DNA of 64,000 bases from positions 397,001-461,000 of the forward strand of contig CAILHZ010000016.1 in the NCBI GenBank assembly GCA_903834135.1. Reading direction: 5' to 3'. Of the stretch, positions 13,804 through 43,450 are shown in pieces. Within the stretch, counting starts at the first letter, position 1; each line of letters begins with the position of its first letter. Below the pieces are notes generated by a model that ran no database searches, was not told the DNA's origin, and saw only the letters and a program-made list of their open reading frames with translations. The DNA is from an uncultured Opitutia bacterium (GTDB lineage Bacteria > Verrucomicrobiota > Verrucomicrobiia > Opitutales > Opitutaceae). Both the position numbers and the translations under genes were made by a program.

Positions 13804-14190
13804 CTAGCTACTAGAATATAATACTGATTGTTGAGCTGCCGCGCTACCAAGATTTTGCGCTATGTTTGAAACAACAGGTGCAAACCATAAAAGTACAGCA
13901 GCCACAGTAGCTAAGATTGCTTTAGCTATACCGTTATGTGTTACGAAATAATAAGCTGTACCAAGACCGATCAGACTTAAAAATTTTAAAATCGAGTACA
14001 CATAGCCAGTAATATTATTGAGGCCTGCTTGTAGACCTTGATCCATATTCTGAGGACCATTGAATACTGAGCTTGCTGTTTGCGCCTTCAAAACAATTGA
14101 ACTAAGCAGAAAGACAAAAAGAAATAATGCTTTAGATGCACTTACGAAATTAGTTTTACTGATGATATTAGTATAGTTGTGTTGTTTCAT
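13804..14190 (-). CDS. VirB2/TrbC-like pilin candidate
   Basis: 128 aa with signal-peptide-like N-term and two hydrophobic helices (YVYSILKFLSLIGLGTAYYF; ILATVAAVLLWFAPVVSNIAQ); divergent from a VirB3/4/5/6 operon. Confidence 0.55.
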   Translation of the reverse strand: MKQHNYTNIISKTNFVSASKALFLFVFLLSSIVLKAQTASSVFNGPQNMDQGLQAGLNNITGYVYSILKFLSLIGLGTAYYFVTHNGIAKAILATVAAVLLWFAPVVSNIAQNLGSAAAQQSVLYSSS

Positions 14191-14201
14191 ACACCTATTA
14201 A

Positions 14202-14239
14202 AGCAAGTGACTGAACAGGGCCCTGTTTGAACACTTGCT
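14202..14239. promoter_or_regulatory. 38-bp two-part inverted repeat between divergent VirB2-like gene and T4SS operon
   Basis: AGCAAGTG-actg-AACAGGGCCCTGTT-tgaa-CACTTGCT: outer 8-bp arms and inner 14-bp palindrome read directly. Confidence 0.75.
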
Positions 14240-14251
14240 ATTATATGTGTA

Positions 14252-14644
14252 ATGCAACCTAAAAGATTATTAATGGCTGTACTTCTATTAATTGAAGTAA
14301 TCGGTCCTACGAAGGCTCAAGATACGTCCAGCCTACCAACAGCACATAGTTTTAATTTACCTGCTAATTCAATTTTAACACAGGTAATACCTGGTTACAA
14401 ACTTCAGGTACTTGAAAAAACTAAACCTATAGCACTTACAATTAATGGTGCTACTGCGAATACGACTCTGCCTGTTTTTATATACATGCCAGAGTCGAAA
14501 ACAGGAGACGGGGTGCTGATTATTAAAGGAGCAATAAATGATTTTGAAAATCTAACTAAGAAGCCTAGTTGGAGCGAAGAAGAATTAGCCGTATTATTAA
14601 CTAACCTAAAACATGGCTTAGCACTGTTGGATCAAAAACTGTGA
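14252..14644 (+). CDS. Hypothetical exported protein, first gene of T4SS/T4P-like operon
   Basis: 130 aa, signal-peptide-like N-term (LLMAVLLLIEVIGPTKAQ); stop overlaps next start (GTGA). Confidence 0.65.
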   Translation: MQPKRLLMAVLLLIEVIGPTKAQDTSSLPTAHSFNLPANSILTQVIPGYKLQVLEKTKPIALTINGATANTTLPVFIYMPESKTGDGVLIIKGAINDFENLTKKPSWSEEELAVLLTNLKHGLALLDQKL

Positions 14645-14940
14645 ATGAATTCAATATAACTATGAATGACTCATTTTCAATAATTCGATTCAATAGGCAA
14701 CTGACGAGGTCAATATATTTGCTGGGAATATTTACTCCTAAAGACTTCAGTACATTAATCGGCGCCCTGGCTTTAAACATGTTAATCCTAAATAGTAATT
14801 TAGGTATGATAATTATAATAACAGGTTATCCGTTATACCTTATTCTTTTTAGGTTAGGTAGGCCAGCAGGTTATGATTCTCATTTATTCAAATCATACTT
14901 TTATCCACGGATCTACCGGCCAGGAAGATGTACCAATTAA
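14641..14940 (+). CDS. VirB3/TrbD-like T4SS inner-membrane protein
   Basis: 99 aa, FNRQLTRSIYLLGIFTPKDFSTLIGALALNMLIL: short N-term then TM pair; immediately upstream of the VirB4-like gene as in T4SS operons. Confidence 0.65.
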   Translation: MNEFNITMNDSFSIIRFNRQLTRSIYLLGIFTPKDFSTLIGALALNMLILNSNLGMIIIITGYPLYLILFRLGRPAGYDSHLFKSYFYPRIYRPGRCTN

Positions 14941-17516
14941 AGCCATATCTAATGAATTATTCTAAATATCAAAGATCGAACCAGTTGAATGGAGATATTT
15001 TGAATAAAGAAATATCAGTACTTTCAATCGAAAATGGTATAATAGTTAATAAAGATGGGTCTATAGGATGCGGATTCAAACTAGACGCATCTTACAGTCC
15101 ATCGCTATCGACGCAAAGTTTAGATACATTATTCAAAACTCTGAACGGATTCCTGAATTCACTACCTGAACATTATGATATCCAAACAATATGGACACAG
15201 AATTCACGTACTTCTGATATTACAAAGAAATTAGAATCAATAAAATTTAGCGAAGGAATTACTGGCGAAGTTCAAAAAGAACAACAAAACAATATTCTAT
15301 ATTTATTGGCTGAAGGCGAACTTCGTTGGATAGATGTGTACTTTCTAATAATTAGAAAAGTGGTTCCATCTGAAGTTGATAAAACATCAGTAGAAAAATA
15401 TAAATTTAAAAAGATTTTAGCTAAAATTTATAATTATTTTACTGATATTAAGTCTACATTTACCTATTCAAAAAATTATTACGTTAAGGCTACATCTGAA
15501 TTAAACATATATTCGGAACAACTTAATTCTCTATTTAATAATCTAGGTTTTAATCCTGTAAAACTAAACGATCATAGTATCACAAACCTATTCTTTCAAA
15601 GATGGAACCCACGGCAATTTAACGCTGGCTCAAATCCGAGGCTGTATAAGTTACAATCCTCAATACCATTTACAGAATATTTCACTCAAAGCACTTTTAG
15701 TTGGGATCCCAGCGGTGAAAGTATTCCTTCTGGTATCGCTGAATTAGACGGCTGGTATCACGCAATTATGACAATGCAAGAGCCGCCCGAGGAGGTATCT
15801 GGATTTATTTTTGATGATTTATTGCTACTTGATGGAGTACAGAGATGTGAACTAATAGTTAACGTAGAACGAGGCAATCGTGCTGATCGAATTAAACGAT
15901 TAAAGAATATACTTAATCAAAGATTGAATCATAACGAGACATCGGATGATCCATCACAGCGAACTGCTACACGCGAAATTGAAATAGAATTAGAAAACAT
16001 GGGGACTAATTCTGAAAGCACATGGAGAGCAGCTGTTTATATACATTTATGGGCACCAGATACTAATCAACTAATACAAGACACAGCAAAACTACAGAGT
16101 TTAGCACGTAGTAAAGATATAATACTTATCCAGGAAAAAAGAGCGTTATGGCCATATTGGAGAACAATACAGCCATTCTGGACACAGGATAAAGATAGAT
16201 ATCGTTTACTTGATTATTCAACTTCCCAGTTAACAAGAATCCTTCCGTTATTTGGACAGCCATCAAATCTTCAGTCTGATAAAAAAATTGGTATTTTGTA
16301 TCAGACTGTTTCACGAAGTATCTTTAATTGGGTAGTACCTGATGAAACTTTATTTAATAATCCTCATTACCTTATAGTTGGCGGTACAGGATCAGGAAAG
16401 TCAGCATTAGCAGTTGAAAATTTATTGTCGTTTCGAAGACGTTCTTCGCAAGTTATAATAATTGATCTAGGTGGATCATTTGTGAGTTTTTGCAATTCTT
16501 GCGGAGGAGTATATATAGATTACAACATACAAAGCAGAAGTAATCGTATAAATCCCCTTTGGCTACCACAGGGAACAATACCAGATTCTGAGATACTACG
16601 TTCTAGAACTCTATGGCTTGAAAGCCTTCTTGCAGAGCGTGGCAAGAGACTTAGCGCTGAAGATTTAGTGATCCTTGAGGAATCACTAAGGAAAACATAT
16701 TTAAAAGATCTAGATATACCAATTTATCTTAGGAACATACGAAATACATTATTAAATGATCCCAAAGGAGAACATTTATCAAGGAGACTATCACCTTGGT
16801 GTGATGAAGGAGCACTGTCTAATTTATTCGATGGGCCAACTCTTATAGATTTATCAGCACCAGTTATTGTCTTTGATCTCAAACGTGTAATGCATGATCA
16901 AAGAGACACTGATCTTGCACGAATTATATTCAGCTCGATCGTAAACACAGTAGTTAGTCTTTCTCTCACGCATACAAAAGAAGCTAAATATTTGGTTTTT
17001 GATGAGGCCGGAGTACTTCTAAAAGATGAAGCAACTGCAGAGTTTATGGAATATTGTTTTCGAACACTAAGAAAAACAGGAGTTTCTGTTTCGGCATTAT
17101 CGCAAGGCTTGGAGGACTTCATGGGGGCTCATAACACCAGAAATGGCTTGATTGGTTCAGCTGATAATCTGTTCGTACTCAGACAAGATAACGCTGACAA
17201 AGCACATATTATTGCAAAAGAAAAAAATCTTTCTGCTAGTGAACTCTCATTAATAGAGTCACTAACTACTGTTCCTGGAAGACATGCTGAATTTGCTCTA
17301 ATACAACAAACTCCATTTGGTCAGAGGACATTGCATCTACTGAGTGCATCTACTCCTCTTAAATACGCTTTTACTGCTAACTCTCCTGAAGATCGCCGGA
17401 AGCTATTTGAGTACCAAAAATTAGGATTATCGAGGCAAAGCGCATTGTTAAAGTTCTCAAAGGAATTTCCTGCAGGAATAATCTCTTCTAACTCTAACAT
17501 TAATCATGAAGTTTAA
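14928..17516 (+). CDS. VirB4/TrbE-family conjugation ATPase
   Basis: 862 aa; Walker A IVGGTGSGKSALAVENLL, Walker B KYLVFDEAGVLL, LRKTGVSVSALSQGLEDF, LEDLV region. Confidence 0.92.
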   Translation: MYQLKPYLMNYSKYQRSNQLNGDILNKEISVLSIENGIIVNKDGSIGCGFKLDASYSPSLSTQSLDTLFKTLNGFLNSLPEHYDIQTIWTQNSRTSDITKKLESIKFSEGITGEVQKEQQNNILYLLAEGELRWIDVYFLIIRKVVPSEVDKTSVEKYKFKKILAKIYNYFTDIKSTFTYSKNYYVKATSELNIYSEQLNSLFNNLGFNPVKLNDHSITNLFFQRWNPRQFNAGSNPRLYKLQSSIPFTEYFTQSTFSWDPSGESIPSGIAELDGWYHAIMTMQEPPEEVSGFIFDDLLLLDGVQRCELIVNVERGNRADRIKRLKNILNQRLNHNETSDDPSQRTATREIEIELENMGTNSESTWRAAVYIHLWAPDTNQLIQDTAKLQSLARSKDIILIQEKRALWPYWRTIQPFWTQDKDRYRLLDYSTSQLTRILPLFGQPSNLQSDKKIGILYQTVSRSIFNWVVPDETLFNNPHYLIVGGTGSGKSALAVENLLSFRRRSSQVIIIDLGGSFVSFCNSCGGVYIDYNIQSRSNRINPLWLPQGTIPDSEILRSRTLWLESLLAERGKRLSAEDLVILEESLRKTYLKDLDIPIYLRNIRNTLLNDPKGEHLSRRLSPWCDEGALSNLFDGPTLIDLSAPVIVFDLKRVMHDQRDTDLARIIFSSIVNTVVSLSLTHTKEAKYLVFDEAGVLLKDEATAEFMEYCFRTLRKTGVSVSALSQGLEDFMGAHNTRNGLIGSADNLFVLRQDNADKAHIIAKEKNLSASELSLIESLTTVPGRHAEFALIQQTPFGQRTLHLLSASTPLKYAFTANSPEDRRKLFEYQKLGLSRQSALLKFSKEFPAGIISSNSNINHEV

Positions 17517-17802
17517 TTACATCATTCTGAATGCGGCTTCGGCTATACTTCTTTCTTCTTGCCAGTCAAATTATACTAATAGCTTAGATAAATCTGAACT
17601 ACTACAAGATGCACGCAGACAGGAGCGGCAAAAAATACTTATGCAGTACTGGCAAAATAAAACCACTGACGTACAGCTACAATCAACTGTTAGTCTTAAC
17701 AATAATATAGAAATGATTAATTATCCTGCTGGTATATATAATAATATTAAATTTGCAGATCGTTTCACTTGTAATAGCGATCTAACTGAACCTCAAAGAT
17801 GA
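17506..17802 (+). CDS. Small predicted lipoprotein (positional VirB7/TrbK candidate)
   Basis: 98 aa; lipobox-like ILLSSC near the N-terminus; overlaps flanking genes. Confidence 0.55.
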   Translation: MKFNYIILNAASAILLSSCQSNYTNSLDKSELLQDARRQERQKILMQYWQNKTTDVQLQSTVSLNNNIEMINYPAGIYNNIKFADRFTCNSDLTEPQR

Positions 17803-18668
17803 AAAATGTTGGGATTTTTATTTTATGGTCTTTTTGTTTTTTCATAACATGCAGATCTAGTTTAGCTATACTTGGCACTGGAGATATTGTTTATGATCCA
17901 GCTAATGTTGCACAAACGATAAATGTATTAAAAGCAGCAGAAGCGCAACTAGATCGGCTAGGCACACTTCTTGGAGTTTCCACTAGACAGTTAGATCAAT
18001 TAACGGGATTGGCTATCGCTATTGGAAATGCAAAAGATTCTATTCAAACTTCATCCTTAATAAATGGTTCACTTATTTCCGCCTCATTAAATGAAGTGCC
18101 AGATATACAAACCACTAGTGTAAATACATTATTTGATACAAATGGACTTTTAGATGCATTTATGGGTATGAAATTGGATCAATGGATCATGGCCATTGAA
18201 AAACCGACGGATTACTATCGAAGAGAAATGATTAATCCAGCTATTGCTAGGATAGGATCAAGCTCGGGGCTAACAACTACAGCAATTGATTATACACAAT
18301 GGTATGCTGCACAAACATCAGAGGATCAGTCTAATTTAAGTCCTAAAGTTGAGTATGACATATCTAATCTACTAGATTCTCAATGGTTGGCTGAAACTAA
18401 AACTAGACGAATTAATTTACAGCAACTTTCTGTTCAAGCTAAACAAGCATCAGATACCGCAAATTCGGCTGCAAACCTAACTGATCTACAGAGAACTGAA
18501 GTACAGCTAGGTAAAGTAACTAACGAAATTTTGATCGAAACTGCCGCACAAGCAGCAAGTAGCCAAGAGTCTTCATTGCGAACAAATGCAGCTCAAAGTA
18601 AATCATTCCAAAATCTTCTGAATACTAATAGAGACTCTGCGTTAATATTACTTAACAACGATCGATAG
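17799..18668 (+). CDS. TrbJ/VirB5-like protein
   Basis: Signal-peptide-like N-term, then VYDPANVAQTINVLKAAEAQLDRLGTLLG resembling TrbJ FDPTNYAQN motif; long helical C-terminus. Confidence 0.7.
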   Translation: MKNVGIFILWSFCFFITCRSSLAILGTGDIVYDPANVAQTINVLKAAEAQLDRLGTLLGVSTRQLDQLTGLAIAIGNAKDSIQTSSLINGSLISASLNEVPDIQTTSVNTLFDTNGLLDAFMGMKLDQWIMAIEKPTDYYRREMINPAIARIGSSSGLTTTAIDYTQWYAAQTSEDQSNLSPKVEYDISNLLDSQWLAETKTRRINLQQLSVQAKQASDTANSAANLTDLQRTEVQLGKVTNEILIETAAQAASSQESSLRTNAAQSKSFQNLLNTNRDSALILLNNDR

Positions 18669-18672
18669 TGAG

Positions 18673-20709
18673 ATGGATCAAACAATTACAACGCTAGGGG
18701 GTACGACTATATCAGCGAGTATATCTGATTCCCAAACACAGCTAATACAAGCCTTAGGTTCAAATCATTCTTTTGATTCAAATTGTATTAGTCAATTCAT
18801 GGCAGTCTACAAATCGAGTGGTAGCGGACCTGTGCTCAAGATGCTGGGATATAATCCTTTTGAGATATTTGCAACTGGCGGATTTAAAATCATGTACTGG
18901 GGGTTTATAACAATACTTCTGGGTATAATTTGCGTTATCGCATTACAAAAAACAATTAGTGCACGTACATCATCAGTAGCCAGACACCCACTAGGTTCAA
19001 TTGCTACCATATACTTTAGGCTACTTGTAGGTGTATTTATCATAGTTAATACACCTCTCTTATACGCAATGCTTATGACTATTAATTTAGTACTCTCCCA
19101 AGGAGTACAGTCTATTGCATCTAATTCTATGTCGGGATTAATTCAATCGAGCAATTTAGGCACATTAACTTTTGCTGAAGCAAGAATTGAATCTATTCGT
19201 AACGCCGCAACGCGAAGAATGATAGCCCTATATCCTAATGATATAACTAAGAGTGACATGATTGAAATTGGTAATTTCTACAACGCTTTAGTACGCAGTT
19301 TGGAATCTGAATCTAACTCTACAAATATAAAGTTATCGCTCCCATTAATATCTAGTACAGTTCTTGATGCTTCAACTAGCGATGCACAGGCTGTTGCATA
19401 TATAGGTCGTACAGTATTACAAAATTTTCCTACACTTATTGCGGGTTTAAGTGCAATAAATACAGATCAAAAAACAATTAATGTCGCTTACCCTACTGGA
19501 TCAAATACCCAGTTACTGTTATTATCAGCAGCTTTAGCAAATGATGATGCTTTAGCCATACAAGCTATCAGAAGTCCATACGAAGGCTCATCTAGTTCTA
19601 ATTTTGAAGCTTCTAGACAGACTTATTCTAAAGCAGTTTTTACTGATACCTTGATTTATTTAGATACAGTAATACTTCCATTTATTCGAACTTCCCCGAC
19701 TTTAGCGCAAAAAATATCTAACTGGTTTTCTGAACGCGTAGAGCAGGCTGCAGCAGTTGCTACTGGCTTAATTAATCAATGGAGAACTTTTATAGATTGG
19801 GTTGCGCGTGCTATAGGTATTATATTAACACGTATACTATCTTTCATATTCACTTTAGGAATAGCTGCTTTAATTGAGATTGAATTATTTGTTTTAGTTT
19901 TAGCAGTCCCATTTTGGCTATTACCTAACACAGAGGAAGCATTTTACGGCGTCTTACGTTCGTTAGCTTCGTTGAGTGTAGCTGTACCTGCTTATCAATT
20001 TATTATGTTATTCGTAGATTCCCTGATGGGGCTTGTTCTTAAGTACATATTAATGGGATCCGCTGCTTCTAGCGGCACAGGTGTTTTAGGTAATCTCGGG
20101 GGTACAGTCTACACAGGTTCTCTGCTTCTAGGTACATTAGGAACTGGGGGAGAACTTATCGTGTTAGTGATGGCATGTTACCTCGTAGCATATCTCTTTC
20201 TTGCTATATACATAGCAATCAAAACACCTCGGTTGATAGCTGGATTTATTAAAGGAACTGGCGTAGCTGGCATGTTTCTATCCACCTTTGCTACAGGATT
20301 AATTGCGGGTGTCGCTTCAACATTTGCTACTGCAACCGTAGCTGGAGGACCTAGCTCATTGGCAAGTCGGTTAAGCACTAGATCTGCTAATATATTTCGC
20401 AGCGGTACGAGATATACTAGTAACAAAGCTAGCCTGCGTAAAGTTTCATCAGTACATCTGCAGAAAGCCGAAAACTCAAATTCGAATAGCCAAAACGATT
20501 CTGCAGCTAATACAAATATTCAAAATCTATCGCTCAACAAATCATCTAGATTTAACTATAAAGTTGCAGCTACATTTGGCCTACGAACATTTATGGATAA
20601 TTTAGGCTCAGAGACTCCACTGGATAGCATTAGTTCTAGTTTAAAGGCTGTTGATTTGCATAATAAGCAAATAAACAAAGAAAGCAGCATAAAGACTAAA
20701 TCAAAGTAG
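18673..20709 (+). CDS. TrbL/VirB6-like polytopic membrane protein
   Basis: 678 aa with multiple TM segments centrally and a polar Ser/Asn-rich C-terminal tail; downstream of VirB5-like gene. Confidence 0.72.
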   Translation: MDQTITTLGGTTISASISDSQTQLIQALGSNHSFDSNCISQFMAVYKSSGSGPVLKMLGYNPFEIFATGGFKIMYWGFITILLGIICVIALQKTISARTSSVARHPLGSIATIYFRLLVGVFIIVNTPLLYAMLMTINLVLSQGVQSIASNSMSGLIQSSNLGTLTFAEARIESIRNAATRRMIALYPNDITKSDMIEIGNFYNALVRSLESESNSTNIKLSLPLISSTVLDASTSDAQAVAYIGRTVLQNFPTLIAGLSAINTDQKTINVAYPTGSNTQLLLLSAALANDDALAIQAIRSPYEGSSSSNFEASRQTYSKAVFTDTLIYLDTVILPFIRTSPTLAQKISNWFSERVEQAAAVATGLINQWRTFIDWVARAIGIILTRILSFIFTLGIAALIEIELFVLVLAVPFWLLPNTEEAFYGVLRSLASLSVAVPAYQFIMLFVDSLMGLVLKYILMGSAASSGTGVLGNLGGTVYTGSLLLGTLGTGGELIVLVMACYLVAYLFLAIYIAIKTPRLIAGFIKGTGVAGMFLSTFATGLIAGVASTFATATVAGGPSSLASRLSTRSANIFRSGTRYTSNKASLRKVSSVHLQKAENSNSNSQNDSAANTNIQNLSLNKSSRFNYKVAATFGLRTFMDNLGSETPLDSISSSLKAVDLHNKQINKESSIKTKSK

Positions 20710-20740
20710 GGGTACTTTGATCACTTGCTATTATATACTT

Positions 20741-21199
20741 GTGCATCTTTTCGCCCACATTGTCGCCACCATTGGACTTACATTTGAAGGAACCCAAAGC
20801 GATCCTAGTTCTTTTAGTTATGTTACAGAAAATATTAGCCATTCCGTGCATGGAATTAATACAAGTACAATCGACCCCATAAATAATGTAATAGATTTAC
20901 AAAATAACGGTTTTCTACACGAAAACAGCCCTAATCCATTTCGTAAAAAGCAATCAATGCATGAACAGTTATTTCAGATAAAAATTTTAGTGGGTTGTAT
21001 TGTAGAAACTTTTAATAACAGAAATAATACAGCAATTATAAATGAACAGATTTATAAATGCGGTGATACTGTTTTAGGACTTAACCTACTTTCAATTTCA
21101 TCCGACTCGATTACCCTTTCCCTGAGAAGCAACAAACTCAATATACCTGTTCAGGATGATCCTATTATCATTCTTCTGCATAAGGATGATATGAAATAA
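20741..21199 (+). CDS. GspC/PilP-like protein (reannotated GTG start)
   Basis: N-terminal hydrophobic stretch; C-term AIINEQIYKCGDTVLGLNLLSISSDSITLSLRSNKLNIPV resembles GspC/PilP homology region. ORF track starts at TTG 20717; GTG 20741 is in frame and sits 6 nt after TATTAT. Confidence 0.5.
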   Translation: MHLFAHIVATIGLTFEGTQSDPSSFSYVTENISHSVHGINTSTIDPINNVIDLQNNGFLHENSPNPFRKKQSMHEQLFQIKILVGCIVETFNNRNNTAIINEQIYKCGDTVLGLNLLSISSDSITLSLRSNKLNIPVQDDPIIILLHKDDMK

Positions 21200-21204
21200 A
21201 ATAT

Positions 21205-22320
21205 ATGCGCGATTTTTATTTTTTATTTATCAGAGAGCTTAACAAAAGATATTTTTATTTAAAAAAACCTAATAGGATACCTTACAAATATTTAATTCTT
21301 TTTTTTGAAGAACTATCCATGTTACTATCATCGGGGGTTTTGATTTCTGACTCTTTAGAATGCCTAGCCCTAAGATTTCCGCACGCTAAGACTCAAGTAA
21401 TAATACGTGACATATACAAGCAAGTCGTTGATTCAAAGTATAGTTTATCTCAAGCATTCTCTCAATACCCTAAGTCTTTTCCTGCTAGTATTATAGCTGT
21501 AATAGAAGCAGGCGAACAAGGCGGCTCATCGTTGCTAGCCCAAAGATTTAAAGATCTTTCAGAACGAATCTCATATGAGCAATCATTGCGATCTCAAATC
21601 AATCGCGCATGCGCATACCCTCTACTAGTTGTCTTATTATCTTTAGGACTCTATGGGATACTTCTGGAAGTTGTCTTCCCACGACTAGCTGATCTTTTAA
21701 GATCACTTGGAAGCGATCTGCCACCACTTGCTAAAGCAATTATACTTTTTGCAACGATATCGAGAAGAATATGGCCTTTCTTTCTCAGCTTAACGATTTT
21801 GCTGCCGATACTTATAATCTTTGCACGCAAATCATCAAAATTTAAAAAAATAATCGATAAGTGGTTTTTACGCTTACCAATTATAGGTGAAATTTATTGT
21901 TTTACAAAAGCTTCTTTAGTCTGCCGTGTTTTCAAATCTCTCTACATATGCAATCAGCCTACGCCTTACAGCCTAGATTTATGCATAAAACTAATTACAA
22001 ACGATGCATTAAAAAGCGGTTTAATTCGAGCACGTTTTGATATAACTCAAAATGGATCAATGCTATCGACGGCCTTTGCAAAAACAGGTCTATTTCCACC
22101 ATTAGCATGCCTTGCCATAGAGATTGGTGAACGAACCGGTAAAATAGCTCCAGCACTTGATAGGGTTAGTGAATATTTGGCCAAACAAGCAAAAGATCGA
22201 CTTGAAATAGCAATAGCTGTGATCAACCCAATATTGACGCTAACAGTAGTTGCTGTAGCTGGAATTATGCTAATTTCATTTTTCCAAGCCAGTTATCAAA
22301 TAATTTATGCAACGAAATGA
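21205..22320 (+). CDS. Type II secretion / type IV pilus inner-membrane platform protein (GspF/PilC family)
   Basis: Two T2SSF-like repeats (FFEELSMLLSSGVLISDSLECLA...; CRVFKSLYICNQPTPYSLDLCIKLI...LAIEIGERTGKIAPALDRVSEYL). Confidence 0.9.
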   Translation: MRDFYFLFIRELNKRYFYLKKPNRIPYKYLILFFEELSMLLSSGVLISDSLECLALRFPHAKTQVIIRDIYKQVVDSKYSLSQAFSQYPKSFPASIIAVIEAGEQGGSSLLAQRFKDLSERISYEQSLRSQINRACAYPLLVVLLSLGLYGILLEVVFPRLADLLRSLGSDLPPLAKAIILFATISRRIWPFFLSLTILLPILIIFARKSSKFKKIIDKWFLRLPIIGEIYCFTKASLVCRVFKSLYICNQPTPYSLDLCIKLITNDALKSGLIRARFDITQNGSMLSTAFAKTGLFPPLACLAIEIGERTGKIAPALDRVSEYLAKQAKDRLEIAIAVINPILTLTVVAVAGIMLISFFQASYQIIYATK

Positions 22321-22336
22321 AAATTATAGTAATAAA

Positions 22337-23287
22337 ATGATCCGTAATTCAGCATTTACGCTGATCGAGATCATAGCAGTCTGTGCAATTATTGGCATAT
22401 TATTTGCCATAAGTGTTCCAGGAATTCAGTTACAGATTTGGGAGGGCAAGAAGAAATCTGAAACAGATCAACTGGAATCAATAGCTCATATAATCCAATC
22501 CTCATTTGAATCAACGGACCTCGAAGGAACAAATATAGCGGCATTCCCTAACTGCATTCCCCTAGGCACTGCTGCCACCCAGTTTTCAACATCAACAGAT
22601 GTAACTCTTTTGCCTAATATGGCCTCGACTAACGATTGGTATGTAAAAGTCGCTAGGCAGGCAGGCTATAATCCTCAAATTGGTGCTGCTCCAACGCATG
22701 CATTACAACCGCAGATTGCAAATATACTGATAAATAGCAGCCAAAACACACGCATTATGTTATCTGGACCTAATAATGAATCCAACCAGCAGCGTTTTAT
22801 TATTCTCTCCCTTATTTCACCTCGTGGACAATTAGAAATACCAGCCCTGCCAGATATTAATAATACTCAAGTTTATTTAAATTATTTTAACGATCTTTGG
22901 AATACTGATTGGAATTATCCATCAGCAACACTGCCCTCTTCTTGGACCGCCTCGTTAACTAGTTCACAAATATCTGAATGGCAGCATAACAGCCAACTAG
23001 GTTCTAATCTTAGCCTTCTTAGAGTTCAGCGTATAGTTTGTCCAAAATATGCAATTACAGTAAACAATACCCACCCGTCAGATAACTGTTATATTTATTT
23101 TAATTTCAACGGCTCTAATGCGAGCAGTACTTCAATAGTTAATTCTAATTCAGGACCGTATATTATTTCATCTATTTTAGCTGGTCGCCAGATCCAGGCT
23201 TACAGAGGAAATGCAATTCCTCCTAACGCTAATCTATTCACACAATTTATATTAAGGGATAACTGCGAAATAACGCTTCAGGACTGA
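22337..23287 (+). CDS. Type IV prepilin-like / pseudopilin protein (start 22337 preferred over 22307)
   Basis: MIRNSAFTLIEIIAVCAIIGILFAISVPG: FTLIE N-methylation motif plus hydrophobic helix, followed by a large C-terminal domain. Confidence 0.85.
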   Translation: MIRNSAFTLIEIIAVCAIIGILFAISVPGIQLQIWEGKKKSETDQLESIAHIIQSSFESTDLEGTNIAAFPNCIPLGTAATQFSTSTDVTLLPNMASTNDWYVKVARQAGYNPQIGAAPTHALQPQIANILINSSQNTRIMLSGPNNESNQQRFIILSLISPRGQLEIPALPDINNTQVYLNYFNDLWNTDWNYPSATLPSSWTASLTSSQISEWQHNSQLGSNLSLLRVQRIVCPKYAITVNNTHPSDNCYIYFNFNGSNASSTSIVNSNSGPYIISSILAGRQIQAYRGNAIPPNANLFTQFILRDNCEITLQD

Positions 23288-39419: not shown

Positions 39420-41426
39420 ATGTTGAAATCATACCTTAAAGTGATTATCGCCTTGGGCTTAATTAGTGTTTCTCGGGCTTCGTTTGTACCTGAGAACTTT
39501 GATACCACCGTAAAACCCCAAGACGATTTCTATCGTTATGCAAACGGCAGCTGGCTTAAGCGCACAGCCATACCACCAGAGTATGCACGTTGGGGTTCTT
39601 TTGATGAGTTAATGCAGCGCAACATCAGTAATCTAAAACTGTTATGCGAAAGAGCCAGTGCTCAAGACAACTCACCTAGTGCAATTGAACACATGGTGGG
39701 AGACTTCTATGCAAGTGGCATGGATGAGGCAGCAATTAATCAATCAGGAGCTGCGGCATTAAATTTTGAATTTACTAAGATTAGCGCTATTGCAACTCCA
39801 GCTGATGTACTCAATGAAATAGCTAGCCTACATAAAATTGGCGTTAATGCGGGATTTGAATTCGGAAGCGAAGCGGACTTCAAAGACAGTAACCATGAGT
39901 TAGCTCAACTTGCACAAGGCGGCCTAGGTCTACCCGACCGTGACTATTACTTTAGAGACGATGATAAATCTAAAAAACTTAGAGAAGCTTATGTTAAGCA
40001 TGTTGCTAAGACATTAATGCTTTTAGGTGACTCTCAGACGTCTGCTCAAACAGGATCTCAAGCTGTAATGAAACTTGAGACCTCCCTTGCTCAAGCATCG
40101 CTTAGCGCGGTACAGCTACGTAATCCCTACGCTAGCTACCACAAGATGACCGTTCAGAAAGTAGAATCACTGGTGCCAGATTTAAATTTAACGAGCTATT
40201 TTACTTCGGTTAGAGCTCCTTCTTTTACTGATATTAATTTAGCTCATCCAGATTTCTTTAAGGCATTTTCTGTGGTATTAAATACAACACCTATCTCGGA
40301 TTGGAAAACCTACCTAAGATGGCATTTGGTCCACACTTACTCACCTTATTTAAGTGAAGACTATGTAAGAGAAAACTTTAGCTTTTACGGCGTCACCTTA
40401 ACTGGGACAAAGGTAATGAAGCCGCGCTGGAAGCGTGTGGTAACCACAATCGATCGCTCAATTGGTGAAGCACTTGGCCAACTTTATGTTAATGCCTACT
40501 TCCCAGCAGAATCCAAAGAACGCGCACTCAAACTTGTATCAAATCTTCGAGCTGCACTGGGTGATAAAATTGGTACACTTGAATGGATGGATGAAGCAAC
40601 GAAGCAAAAAGCCAGAGAAAAGCTAAATTCGTTTACAGTTAAAATTGGATATCCTGATACATGGCGTGACTACAGTAATCTTGTAATCAATCGCGGTCCA
40701 TATGTGCTAAATGTGTTAAAAGCTAATGCCTTTGAAGTAAGAAGAAATTTAATACGCATTGGTAAAGAAGTAGACAAATCTGAATGGGGAATGAGTACAC
40801 CAACGGTCAACGCCTATTATAACCCACTTCAAAATGAAATTGTTTTTCCAGCAGGTATTTTACAGCCTCCGTTTTTTGATGCGAAAGCAGATGACGCTGT
40901 TAATTACGGCGGGATTGGAGCTGTCATAGGCCACGAAATGACCCACGGCTTTGATGATCAAGGTCGTCAATTTGATAGTCATGGAAACCTAACCAATTGG
41001 TGGTCAAAAGAGTCTGAGCAGAAATTTAAGGTACGCTCTGCTGCTATCGTAGATCAATTTAATGGTTACTTTCCAATCTCAGATCTACATATCAATGGTC
41101 AGTTAACTCAGGGTGAAAACATAGCTGACTTAGGCGGTCTTAAAATCGCATATGCAGGCCTGCAGAAAGCACTAGCAGACCAATCTCGCGATAAAATCGA
41201 TGGCTTTACGCCTGAGCAAAGATTCTTCATCAGCTTTGCTTCTGTTTGGGCAGGTAAGATGACTCCCGAGAGTCTGCGCTTACAATTAAACACAAACCCA
41301 CATTCACCTGGAGAATTCCGCACAAACGGACCTCTGTCTAATTTAGATGAATTTGCCCAAGCCTTCAATGTACCCGAAGGTGCTGGTATGCGTAGATCTG
41401 CTGATAAACGTTTTACAATTTGGTGA
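39420..41426 (+). CDS. M13 family metallopeptidase (paralog 1)
   Basis: VKPQDDFYRYANGSWL; NEIVFPAGILQPPFF; VIGHEMTHGFDDQGRQFD; GENIADLGGLKIAY. Confidence 0.96.
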   Translation: MLKSYLKVIIALGLISVSRASFVPENFDTTVKPQDDFYRYANGSWLKRTAIPPEYARWGSFDELMQRNISNLKLLCERASAQDNSPSAIEHMVGDFYASGMDEAAINQSGAAALNFEFTKISAIATPADVLNEIASLHKIGVNAGFEFGSEADFKDSNHELAQLAQGGLGLPDRDYYFRDDDKSKKLREAYVKHVAKTLMLLGDSQTSAQTGSQAVMKLETSLAQASLSAVQLRNPYASYHKMTVQKVESLVPDLNLTSYFTSVRAPSFTDINLAHPDFFKAFSVVLNTTPISDWKTYLRWHLVHTYSPYLSEDYVRENFSFYGVTLTGTKVMKPRWKRVVTTIDRSIGEALGQLYVNAYFPAESKERALKLVSNLRAALGDKIGTLEWMDEATKQKAREKLNSFTVKIGYPDTWRDYSNLVINRGPYVLNVLKANAFEVRRNLIRIGKEVDKSEWGMSTPTVNAYYNPLQNEIVFPAGILQPPFFDAKADDAVNYGGIGAVIGHEMTHGFDDQGRQFDSHGNLTNWWSKESEQKFKVRSAAIVDQFNGYFPISDLHINGQLTQGENIADLGGLKIAYAGLQKALADQSRDKIDGFTPEQRFFISFASVWAGKMTPESLRLQLNTNPHSPGEFRTNGPLSNLDEFAQAFNVPEGAGMRRSADKRFTIW

Positions 41427-41443
41427 TCATTTAATTACTAGTC

Positions 41444-43450
41444 ATGAAAATAATTAGCTTTAGTTTCGTAGCCTTTTCATTGTTTTGCACAGTCGGAAGT
41501 CAAGCTGCTTTCACTGCAAAAGATTTCGATCCAAAGGTTAAACCACAGGATAATTTCTATACTTACGTCAACAGCAGTTGGCTTAAAGCTAATCCAATTC
41601 CACCTCAATATAGCAGTTGGGGTGTTTTCAATGAAGTCAATGAACGCAATATAGCTGCAGTTCATTCGATCTTAGTTAGCGCTGCATCAGCAACTAATCC
41701 TGATAAGATCACACAGCAAGTTGGTGATTTTTACGCAAGTGGAATGGATGAAAAATCTGTTGAAACTGCAGGAATCAATCCGCTTAAATCTGAATTAAAT
41801 TCTCTAAGTAGATTAAATTCAGTATCTCAGGTATGCGAAAGTATAGCTCACTTACACAGCCTTGGAGTTAATGTAGGTTTTGGTTTTGGCTCTGAACAAG
41901 ATCCGAAAAATAGCGTTATGATGATAGCTGGAGTAAGCCAAGCTGGTTTAGGTTTACCAGACCGTGATTATTATCTGAAAACAGATGCTGCGTCACAAAA
42001 ATTGCGTGAAAAATACCTCGGCCATATAAACCAAATACTCGTACTCTCAGGTTATAGTGAAAGTGATGCAAAAACAGCTTCTAGTAACATACTTACCCTT
42101 GAGACTGAATTGGCTAAAATATCTAAAAGTAACGTAGAGCTTAGAGATCCAGTATCCAACTATCACAAAACACTGTCTTCAGATCTTGCTAAGCTTACTC
42201 CCGATTTTGATTGGAATCTCTATTTCTCACGTACAGGACTAAAAAATCTGGATAGCATAGATGTAGGGCAACCTGATTTCTTAAAAGGTTTTGATCATTT
42301 ACTCACAACGATACCCTTAGCCACATGGCAGGCGTATATGCACTGGCACCTTATACATGCCTACGCACCGTATTTAAGTTCCGTGTTTGTGAACGCAAAT
42401 TTTGAATTTTATGGGAAAACTCTTAGCGGTGCCAAAGAACTAAGAGAGCGCTGGAAACGAGTTTTAAGTGCCGAGGAGGGATCCATAGGTGAAAATCTGG
42501 GTAAAGCCTATGTCGCAAAATATTTCCCGCCTGAATCGAAAGCACGCGTACTAAGTCTTGTAAGTAATTTAAGGGCAGTATTGCGTGATGAAATTTCTCA
42601 CCTCGAATGGATGGATGCCGAAACACGCACTAAGGCGCTAGTTAAATTAGATGCCTATGGAGTAAAGATTGGATATCCAGATAAATGGATAGATTATAGT
42701 TCACTAACAATAGACCGAGGCCCCTACGTCTTAAATGTGATGCGGGCTAATACCTTTAACGTATCTCGAGACCTTGCAAAAGTAGGTCATCTTAAAGATC
42801 GAACTGAATGGGGAATGATACCACCTGAAGTAAATGCTTACTACGATCCCACTATGAACGAGATTGTTTTCCCTGCAGGAATTTTACAGCCTCCGTTCTT
42901 CGATCCTAAAGCAGATGACGCTATTAATTATGGTTCGATAGGGGCAGTTATTGGCCACGAAATGACCCATGGGTTTGACGATGAAGGTCGTCAATTTGAC
43001 CCCAAGGGAAATCTTACTGATTGGTGGTCGGCTTCGAGTGCTAAACTTTTCCAAGAACGAGCATCTGGTATTGTTCACCAATTTAGTGGTTACTCGATCG
43101 CAAGTGGCCAACACGTGAATGGCGAACTTACTCAAGGAGAAAACATAGCCGATTTAGGTGGCGTCAAAATCGCCTATGCGGCGCTAGAGAAAGCCCTTGA
43201 AGGTAAACCTAGAACCCTCATTGACGGTTATACTGAAGAACAACGTTTTTTCTTTAGTTATGCTCTTATTTGGCGAGAGAACATGCGCCCTGAAGCTATG
43301 GCCTTGCAGGTAAATACAGACCCCCACTCACCACCAGAATTTAGGGTGAACGGACCTCTCTCTAATTTAGCTCAGTTTTGGGCAGCGTTTAACGTGCCAG
43401 AAGGTACTCCGATGCATCGTACCGCTAAGGATAACGTTACGATTTGGTAA
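41444..43450 (+). CDS. M13 family metallopeptidase (paralog 2)
   Basis: Same motifs as paralog 1: VKPQDNFYTYVNSSWL, VIGHEMTHGFDDEGRQFD, GENIADLGGVKIAY; also 668 aa. Confidence 0.96.
   Translation: MKIISFSFVAFSLFCTVGSQAAFTAKDFDPKVKPQDNFYTYVNSSWLKANPIPPQYSSWGVFNEVNERNIAAVHSILVSAASATNPDKITQQVGDFYASGMDEKSVETAGINPLKSELNSLSRLNSVSQVCESIAHLHSLGVNVGFGFGSEQDPKNSVMMIAGVSQAGLGLPDRDYYLKTDAASQKLREKYLGHINQILVLSGYSESDAKTASSNILTLETELAKISKSNVELRDPVSNYHKTLSSDLAKLTPDFDWNLYFSRTGLKNLDSIDVGQPDFLKGFDHLLTTIPLATWQAYMHWHLIHAYAPYLSSVFVNANFEFYGKTLSGAKELRERWKRVLSAEEGSIGENLGKAYVAKYFPPESKARVLSLVSNLRAVLRDEISHLEWMDAETRTKALVKLDAYGVKIGYPDKWIDYSSLTIDRGPYVLNVMRANTFNVSRDLAKVGHLKDRTEWGMIPPEVNAYYDPTMNEIVFPAGILQPPFFDPKADDAINYGSIGAVIGHEMTHGFDDEGRQFDPKGNLTDWWSASSAKLFQERASGIVHQFSGYSIASGQHVNGELTQGENIADLGGVKIAYAALEKALEGKPRTLIDGYTEEQRFFFSYALIWRENMRPEAMALQVNTDPHSPPEFRVNGPLSNLAQFWAAFNVPEGTPMHRTAKDNVTIW

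Follow-up and report, generated by a model that had tools for sequence, protein, structure and literature searches.

A 64,000-nucleotide stretch of the genome of an uncultured Opitutia bacterium (Verrucomicrobiota, family Opitutaceae; contig CAILHZ010000016.1 of assembly GCA_903834135.1; hereafter, the window) contains an operon in which genes of a conjugation-type type IV secretion system (T4SS) are interleaved with genes of a type IV pilus (T4P) or type II secretion system (T2SS). In the source genome (G000, a 2.65-Mb, 26-contig, 94%-complete assembly with the window on its contig C16), four gene modules were distinguished: the window operon (module 1), a secretin/GspE module (module 2), a VirB8-10 module (module 3), and a VirD4 module (module 4). 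The modules co-occurred among related genomes, and each of them kept its gene order; in two relatives (G320 and G372), they formed an island together with a relaxase and TopB, and in G320 also with an integrase. Judged from sequence, the four modules probably make up one hybrid machine, part conjugation-type T4SS and part T4P, which in G000 would be a dispersed, chromosomally fixed exporter without a detectable relaxase.

The sequence-only reading of the window had described a contiguous, overlapping plus-strand gene run next to a divergent virB2-like gene, and this layout was confirmed. Ten open reading frames (ORFs) were recovered: nine plus-strand genes form a tight operon (spacing of -14 to +7 nt, with overlaps at 14641, 14928, 17506, 17799, and 22307), and the virB2-like gene diverges from it (Table 1). 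The operon is AT-rich, with 36.2% GC compared with 42.8% in the remaining window. Five other Opitutaceae metagenome-assembled genomes encode a VirB4 that is 54-58% identical over its full length (loci L043-L047, of which L047 is part of G320), and their gene order was read where contigs covered it. The order orf2-virB3-virB4-lipoprotein-virB5-virB6-pilP-gspF-prepilin1 was common to L044-L047, and L043, a shorter stretch, agreed over its readable part. As far as the contigs are readable, VirB-type and T4P/T2SS-type genes therefore share one operon, as had been proposed, and a random juxtaposition of the two sets is ruled out by the gene order kept in relatives. In G320, an extra small exported protein is encoded between virB5 and virB6, and module 1 continues directly into secretin, gspE, prepilin2, PilMN-like, and PilO-like genes. 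The virB6 gene appears interrupted in L044 and L046 by single-base indels (L044:13287 and L046:about 12165); a conserved split gene was rejected as an explanation because the breaks lie at homopolymers and at differing positions and are probably assembly errors. The virB2-like gene adjoins the operon in G320 (L047) and lies on the same contig as the operon in L043 and L045. In G370, it is found several kb from the operon (L043:4909-6102) with a second partial copy nearby, an arrangement that hints at duplication or rearrangement.

The gene assignments of the sequence-only reading held in part. VirB4, GspF, and the prepilin were supported by profile and the PilP-like protein by fold, whereas VirB3 and VirB6 had no profile match and the VirB2 match remained below threshold. 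The VirB4 Walker A motif (GGTGSGKS) is present at residue 485, and a search of the G000 genome with PF03135 (CagE_TrbE_VirB), a profile too specific for this purpose, gave no match. For the PilP-like protein, AlphaFold modeled the C-terminal domain with a pLDDT of ~90, and a Foldseek search of this domain against the PDB returned GspB (4wfw) first (prob 1.00, E 0.01) and the PulC HR domain (6hcg) third (prob 0.97, E 0.48), the E-values being modest. VirB3, VirB5, VirB6, and the lipoprotein gave no meaningful direct Pfam or NCBIfam match. VirB3 and VirB6 are thus putative assignments, made from position, size, hydrophobicity, and conservation, and an AlphaFold model of VirB6 from three sequences was uninformative (pLDDT 39) and was discarded.

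Table 1. Genes of the window operon (module 1) and the divergent virB2-like gene, with window positions, the basis of each assignment, and conservation in the relatives.
Product	Position	Strand	Basis or remark	Identity in relatives
VirB2/TrbC-like pilin	13804..14190	-	divergent from operon; TrbC Pfam E 0.0045, below cut-off	65-73%
Small exported protein, no family assigned (orf2)	14252..14644	+	operon gene 1	25-31%, same position in 5/5
VirB3-like membrane protein	14641..14940	+	position between orf2 and virB4; no profile match	51-66%
VirB4 ATPase (TraC/F-like)	14928..17516	+	TIGR02746 TraC-F-type 1.7e-53; P-loop_TraG 5.6e-23	
Small lipoprotein	17506..17802	+	signal/lipobox-like N terminus, from sequence	29-33%, same position in four
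VirB5/TrbJ-like exported protein	17799..18668	+	profile-profile match (hhalign 85%) to the VirB5 family of compact T4SS operons in other Opitutaceae; G439 equivalent matches PF07996 (E 0.0012)	
VirB6/TrbL-like polytopic membrane protein	18673..20709	+	position, size, hydrophobicity, conservation	43-62%
GspB/GspC/PilP-type HR-domain protein	20717..21199	+	T2SSB E 0.0026, below threshold; fold match	
GspF/PilC inner-membrane platform protein	21205..22320	+	T2SSF 6.5e-32; TIGR02120 (GspF) 8.3e-51	
Prepilin 1 (type IV pilin-like)	22307..23287	+	N_methyl 1.9e-4, just over cut-off; TIGR02532 over cut-off	49-54%

As the sequence-only reading had noted, VirB8-11, VirD4, GspE, a secretin, and a relaxase are not encoded in the window, and genome searches placed GspE, the secretin, and VirD4 elsewhere. 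The genome-wide partner search that it had suggested yielded VirB8-like proteins, VirB9, VirB10, VirD4, a secretin, GspE, and a prepilin peptidase, but no PF03432 relaxase. Module 2 consists of secretin, gspE, prepilin2, and PilMN-like genes (L039 7566-13179) and lies on C16, 190 kb from the operon, in agreement with the earlier suggestion of a secretin encoded elsewhere; the secretin is located at C16:220486 (profile E 9.2e-33), and the PilMN-like protein (541 aa, no Pfam match) was assigned by position and topology. Module 3 (C19, L037 11977 to L038 1679) contains, in a gene order that is identical in all relatives, genes for another GspE-type ATPase (GspE2), two VirB8-like proteins (VirB8a and VirB8b), VirB9, VirB10, and a TraV/VirB7-like lipoprotein. 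Module 4 (C22, L075 11530-17911) contains a VirD4-like gene (L075:14776-17070 = C22:98775-101069) with conserved small neighbors, the product being 61% identical (C22:99147-101051) to the VirD4 of G320, which exceeds the TraG-D_C cut-off. The VirD4-like protein has a variant P-loop (GVTGSSKT, with S or A replacing the usual G before K), as do those of G320, G370, and G373. Since modules 2-4 exist in G000, a VirB9/VirB10 core belongs to the hybrid system itself, as does an apparently complete set of T4P components. The earlier idea of a minimal engine without a T4SS core is therefore abandoned, because the core components and VirD4 are present in these three further conserved modules. A complete canonical T4SS split elsewhere in the genome, named in advance as an outcome that would speak against the proposal, was found only insofar as the pieces outside the window belong to the same machine.

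In profile searches against the PDB, VirB10 matched the solved VirB10 6gyb (E 0.0021), and searches with VirB5, VirB8a/b, VirB9, PilP, and VirB7 were empty or gave chance matches. The compact T4SS operons of other Opitutaceae encode a VirB10 that exceeds the TrbI cut-off (2.1e-18). In hhalign comparisons with the families of these operons, VirB9 (98%) and VirB10 (96%) both matched over long stretches and VirB5 over one segment, VirB6 (34%) and VirB8a (4%, with most of its length covered) were merely the best in their rows, and nothing convincing was obtained for VirB8b, VirB7, or VirB3. VirB4 was found in 7 of 252 Opitutaceae genomes, and strong VirB9 matches (E <1e-50) occurred in exactly the same 7 and in none of the 245 others (p 8e-14 if the genomes are taken as independent, a figure that ignores their kinship). 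Furthermore, VirB10-like and VirD4-like genes were present in 6/6 VirB4 carriers tested.

In the mechanism that we propose, the T4P module (secretin, GspE, PilMN, PilP, GspF, and peptidase-processed prepilins) would build a filament by which a recipient is captured or drawn near, and VirD4 and VirB4 would export the substrate via VirB3/B6/B8 and the VirB7/9/10 core. GspE2, which is encoded beside VirB8-10 and has the GspE-type cysteine motif, would take over the job of VirB11; no VirB11 proper was found. Profile searches of this genome gave three GspE-type ATPases in all, and the GspE/secretin pair on C22 was rejected as a part of the hybrid system, as it belongs to a separate, ordinary T2SS. 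A single A24 prepilin peptidase, on C5, would serve both the hybrid system and the C22 T2SS. The sequence-only reading had suggested that the T4SS engine may use a T4P-type platform and pilin, or a secretin encoded elsewhere. In such a merged machine, the secretin or the GspF/PilMNOP platform would carry a substrate driven by VirB4/VirD4, GspE2 would replace VirB11, and a bacterial genus would maintain the whole as a dispersed chromosomal function without a relaxase. The interleaving of VirB6, PilP, GspF, and prepilin in one operon and the VirB10-PilP-GspF arrangement in compact loci are consistent with this route, and a similar model has been published for the PAPI-1 element (PMC12857230). 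However, VirB9, VirB10, and the VirB7-like lipoprotein are kept in 6/6 genomes, which argues for a T4SS with its own outer-membrane route, and the T4P has its own secretin. Beyond gene interleaving, no positive evidence for a T4SS engine on a T4P platform was obtained, and we consider a merged route unlikely.

The modules were found in two states. In G320 and G372, a single region of ~90 kb holds all of them together with the gene for a MOB-type relaxase. The G320 relaxase matches PF03432 with E 1.1e-4, just below the cut-off, and has an HxHxH motif (HDRAHVHAH); the region also encodes TopB and ArdC, and a phage-type tyrosine integrase gene marks one edge of it. Between the G320 and G372 regions, nucleotide identity is 86-95% and ends at G320 161143 (the integrase side), and the flanks differ, as expected of a mobile element. 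Judged by an integrase and a relaxase on the element and by defined boundaries, the G320 region largely has the properties of an integrative and conjugative element (ICE), and the dispersed modules of G000 do not. In G000 and its congeners G370, G371, and G373, the modules lie apart, and a homologue of the G320-type relaxase is absent from these four genomes and present only in G320 and G372. Module 2 adjoins the CCA enzyme and DUF423 in G000 and G373 and a 545-aa protein in G000, G370, and G371 (plus ValS in G370); the VirD4 module adjoins accC in G000, G371, and G373. Modules 1 and 3 have no common flanks across species within the stretches read. The housekeeping neighbors of the modules are mostly 53-90% identical across these species. 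Because module 2 and the VirD4 module are found at matching chromosomal positions in several species, the dispersed state is older than these species, and the direction of change between ICE and dispersed state is not readable from the six-system tree owing to its low support.

A decaying, non-functional ICE remnant that was scattered through rearrangement could also account for a dispersed state, and it would fit the low GC content of the modules (36-41% compared with 42-44% in the flanks) and the lack of any integrase or relaxase seen near them. However, reading frames are intact throughout the four modules, mostly with 34-65% identity to relatives, the Walker A motifs and the GspE cysteine pairs are kept (VirD4 having the P-loop variant), and two modules stand at orthologous sites in several species. 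These results render a remnant highly improbable, and the dispersed modules appear to be a kept, vertically maintained function rather than debris. Since the machine has persisted through speciation at scattered chromosomal positions and no relaxase was detected, we infer that it is a chromosomally fixed exporter in G000. Its cargo would most likely be DNA, either of elements or of chromosome that a different enzyme has nicked, and protein export would be less likely.

Effector T4SSs typically keep VirD4 without a relaxase. The retained VirD4 and the lack of a detected relaxase would thus also be expected if the T4SS of this genus delivered protein effectors and the T4P served adhesion, but no effector candidates were identified and the same machine carries a relaxase in close relatives, so that this explanation has a low probability. 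DNA uptake was considered as well: in competence, the T4P would pull DNA inward and VirB-type proteins would aid import, as ComB does in Helicobacter. The failure to find a relaxase in G000 (PF03432) or, for the G320-relaxase homologue, in G000 and three congeners is compatible with this, as is a PilT-like ATPase gene directly upstream of the module-2 secretin in G370 (L096:12430-13524, minus strand). ComB operates without a VirD4-type ATPase, whereas all six genomes here retain an export ATPase of the VirD4 type; moreover, PilT was not found in G000, and the G320/G372 system carries a relaxase. Competence is therefore quite unlikely.

Several points weigh against the exporter that we favor. 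Profile support is weak or lacking for VirB8a/b, VirB6, VirB3, and VirB7, which were assigned by position and topology. No PilT-sized match was present among the T2SSE matches of G000. The relaxase search of G000 covered one family (PF03432, no match at E 1) and homologues of one protein, the G320 relaxase, in an assembly that is 94% complete and with other MOB families not searched. The ingroup tree of the six systems was poorly supported (40-71%).

The wider occurrence of such loci was gauged from the gene content of the stretches read around VirB4 genes of the order (31 loci). VirB4 and VirB9/VirB10 are joined with GspF at nine of these loci, which belong to seven genomes (G080, G195 with two, G320 contig C77, G336, G355, G363, and G369 with two), mostly with a PilP-like protein and prepilin1 detected; the E-values of some members are inflated because their sequences fed the profiles. 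Where the contig could be read further, an exported repeat protein, a secretin, and GspE followed, usually with prepilin2 and PilMN. In L147, L149, and L152, the secreted repeat protein, 525 to about 1570 aa long, is encoded between prepilin1 and the secretin; this protein of the other-clade hybrid loci is a candidate pilus or surface adhesin. At the remaining VirB4 loci, the stretch read contained no T4P genes. The VirB4 tree groups the nine loci in one clade (99%) apart from the window type; loci without detected T4P genes fall between the two hybrid types, and the distant G439 system falls outside the nine. The GspF tree agreed with the VirB4 tree, with a Mantel r of 0.80 (p 1e-4) overall and of 0.67 (p 2e-4) among the nine. 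Contig C53 of G439 (L097/L098) carries a strongly diverged hybrid with VirB4 at 29% identity, its own GspF and prepilins, PilT-like and GspE-like ATPases, an orf2 homologue, and a VirB5 equivalent that matches PF07996 (E 0.0012). Two separate hybrid VirB4 types suggest that the association arose more than once or that it is old and was repeatedly lost.

A scan of viral_contigs found no relative, and the plasmid collection gave only distant TraC-type matches; these results give no sign of an origin from a phage or plasmid. A promoter/terminator scan gave fewer matches than shuffled sequences and no usable signal. Elsewhere in the window (39420-43450), two adjacent paralogues are predicted to encode exported M13-type metallopeptidases of 668 aa each.

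The open-access literature gave no account of interleaved T4SS/T4P operons or of a Verrucomicrobial case, although descriptions outside open access are possible. The VirB4 described here has its best match in the TraC-F-type family, and equivalents of VirB2-B6 (VirB2, VirB3, and VirB6 being putative) and VirB9/B10 are present, as in F/MPF_F and VirB/Trb T4SSs; unlike in those systems, the VirB8-10 genes are accompanied by one for a GspE/PilB-type ATPase (GspE2), and T4P genes are added. The gonococcal genetic island (GGI) of Neisseria gonorrhoeae is likewise a conjugation-type machine kept on the chromosome (PMC12857230), but the GGI is a single F-like island with a relaxase, whereas the present system has four dispersed modules with T4P genes, and a relaxase was not found. 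The genus with the dispersed modules provides a natural case of a conjugation machine that may have turned into a fixed function of the chromosome. In the IncI plasmids R64/TP114, a Dot/Icm-like T4SS is accompanied by a thin T4P that helps liquid mating (PMC12857230). On these conjugative elements a complete T4SS is combined with a complete T4P, as is putatively the case in the present system; in IncI, they form two separate clusters, and here a TraC/VirB-type T4SS shares an operon with T4P genes. PAPI-1 of Pseudomonas aeruginosa combines a type IVb pilus with VirB4/VirD4 on one element, and its T4P is essential for transfer; the pilus is encoded by a separate 10-gene pil cluster, and VirB4 and VirD4 are described as the only clear T4SS homologues of PAPI-1 (PMC12857230, PMC5297154). 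A 2025 review treats this chimera as an open question (PMC12857230). As in PAPI-1, T4P and T4SS ATPases occur together in the system described here; in contrast to PAPI-1, it also has VirB9/VirB10 and several other VirB-like proteins, and its T4P genes stand among the VirB genes. The system thus lets one ask whether the T4P acts purely as a grappling hook or belongs to the export pathway itself. In the literature consulted, T4P and T4SS are linked in DNA transfer through a few proteobacterial elements (IncI plasmids and PAPI-1) with separate gene clusters, whereas Opitutaceae members keep both machines interleaved in single operons, across two VirB4 clades.

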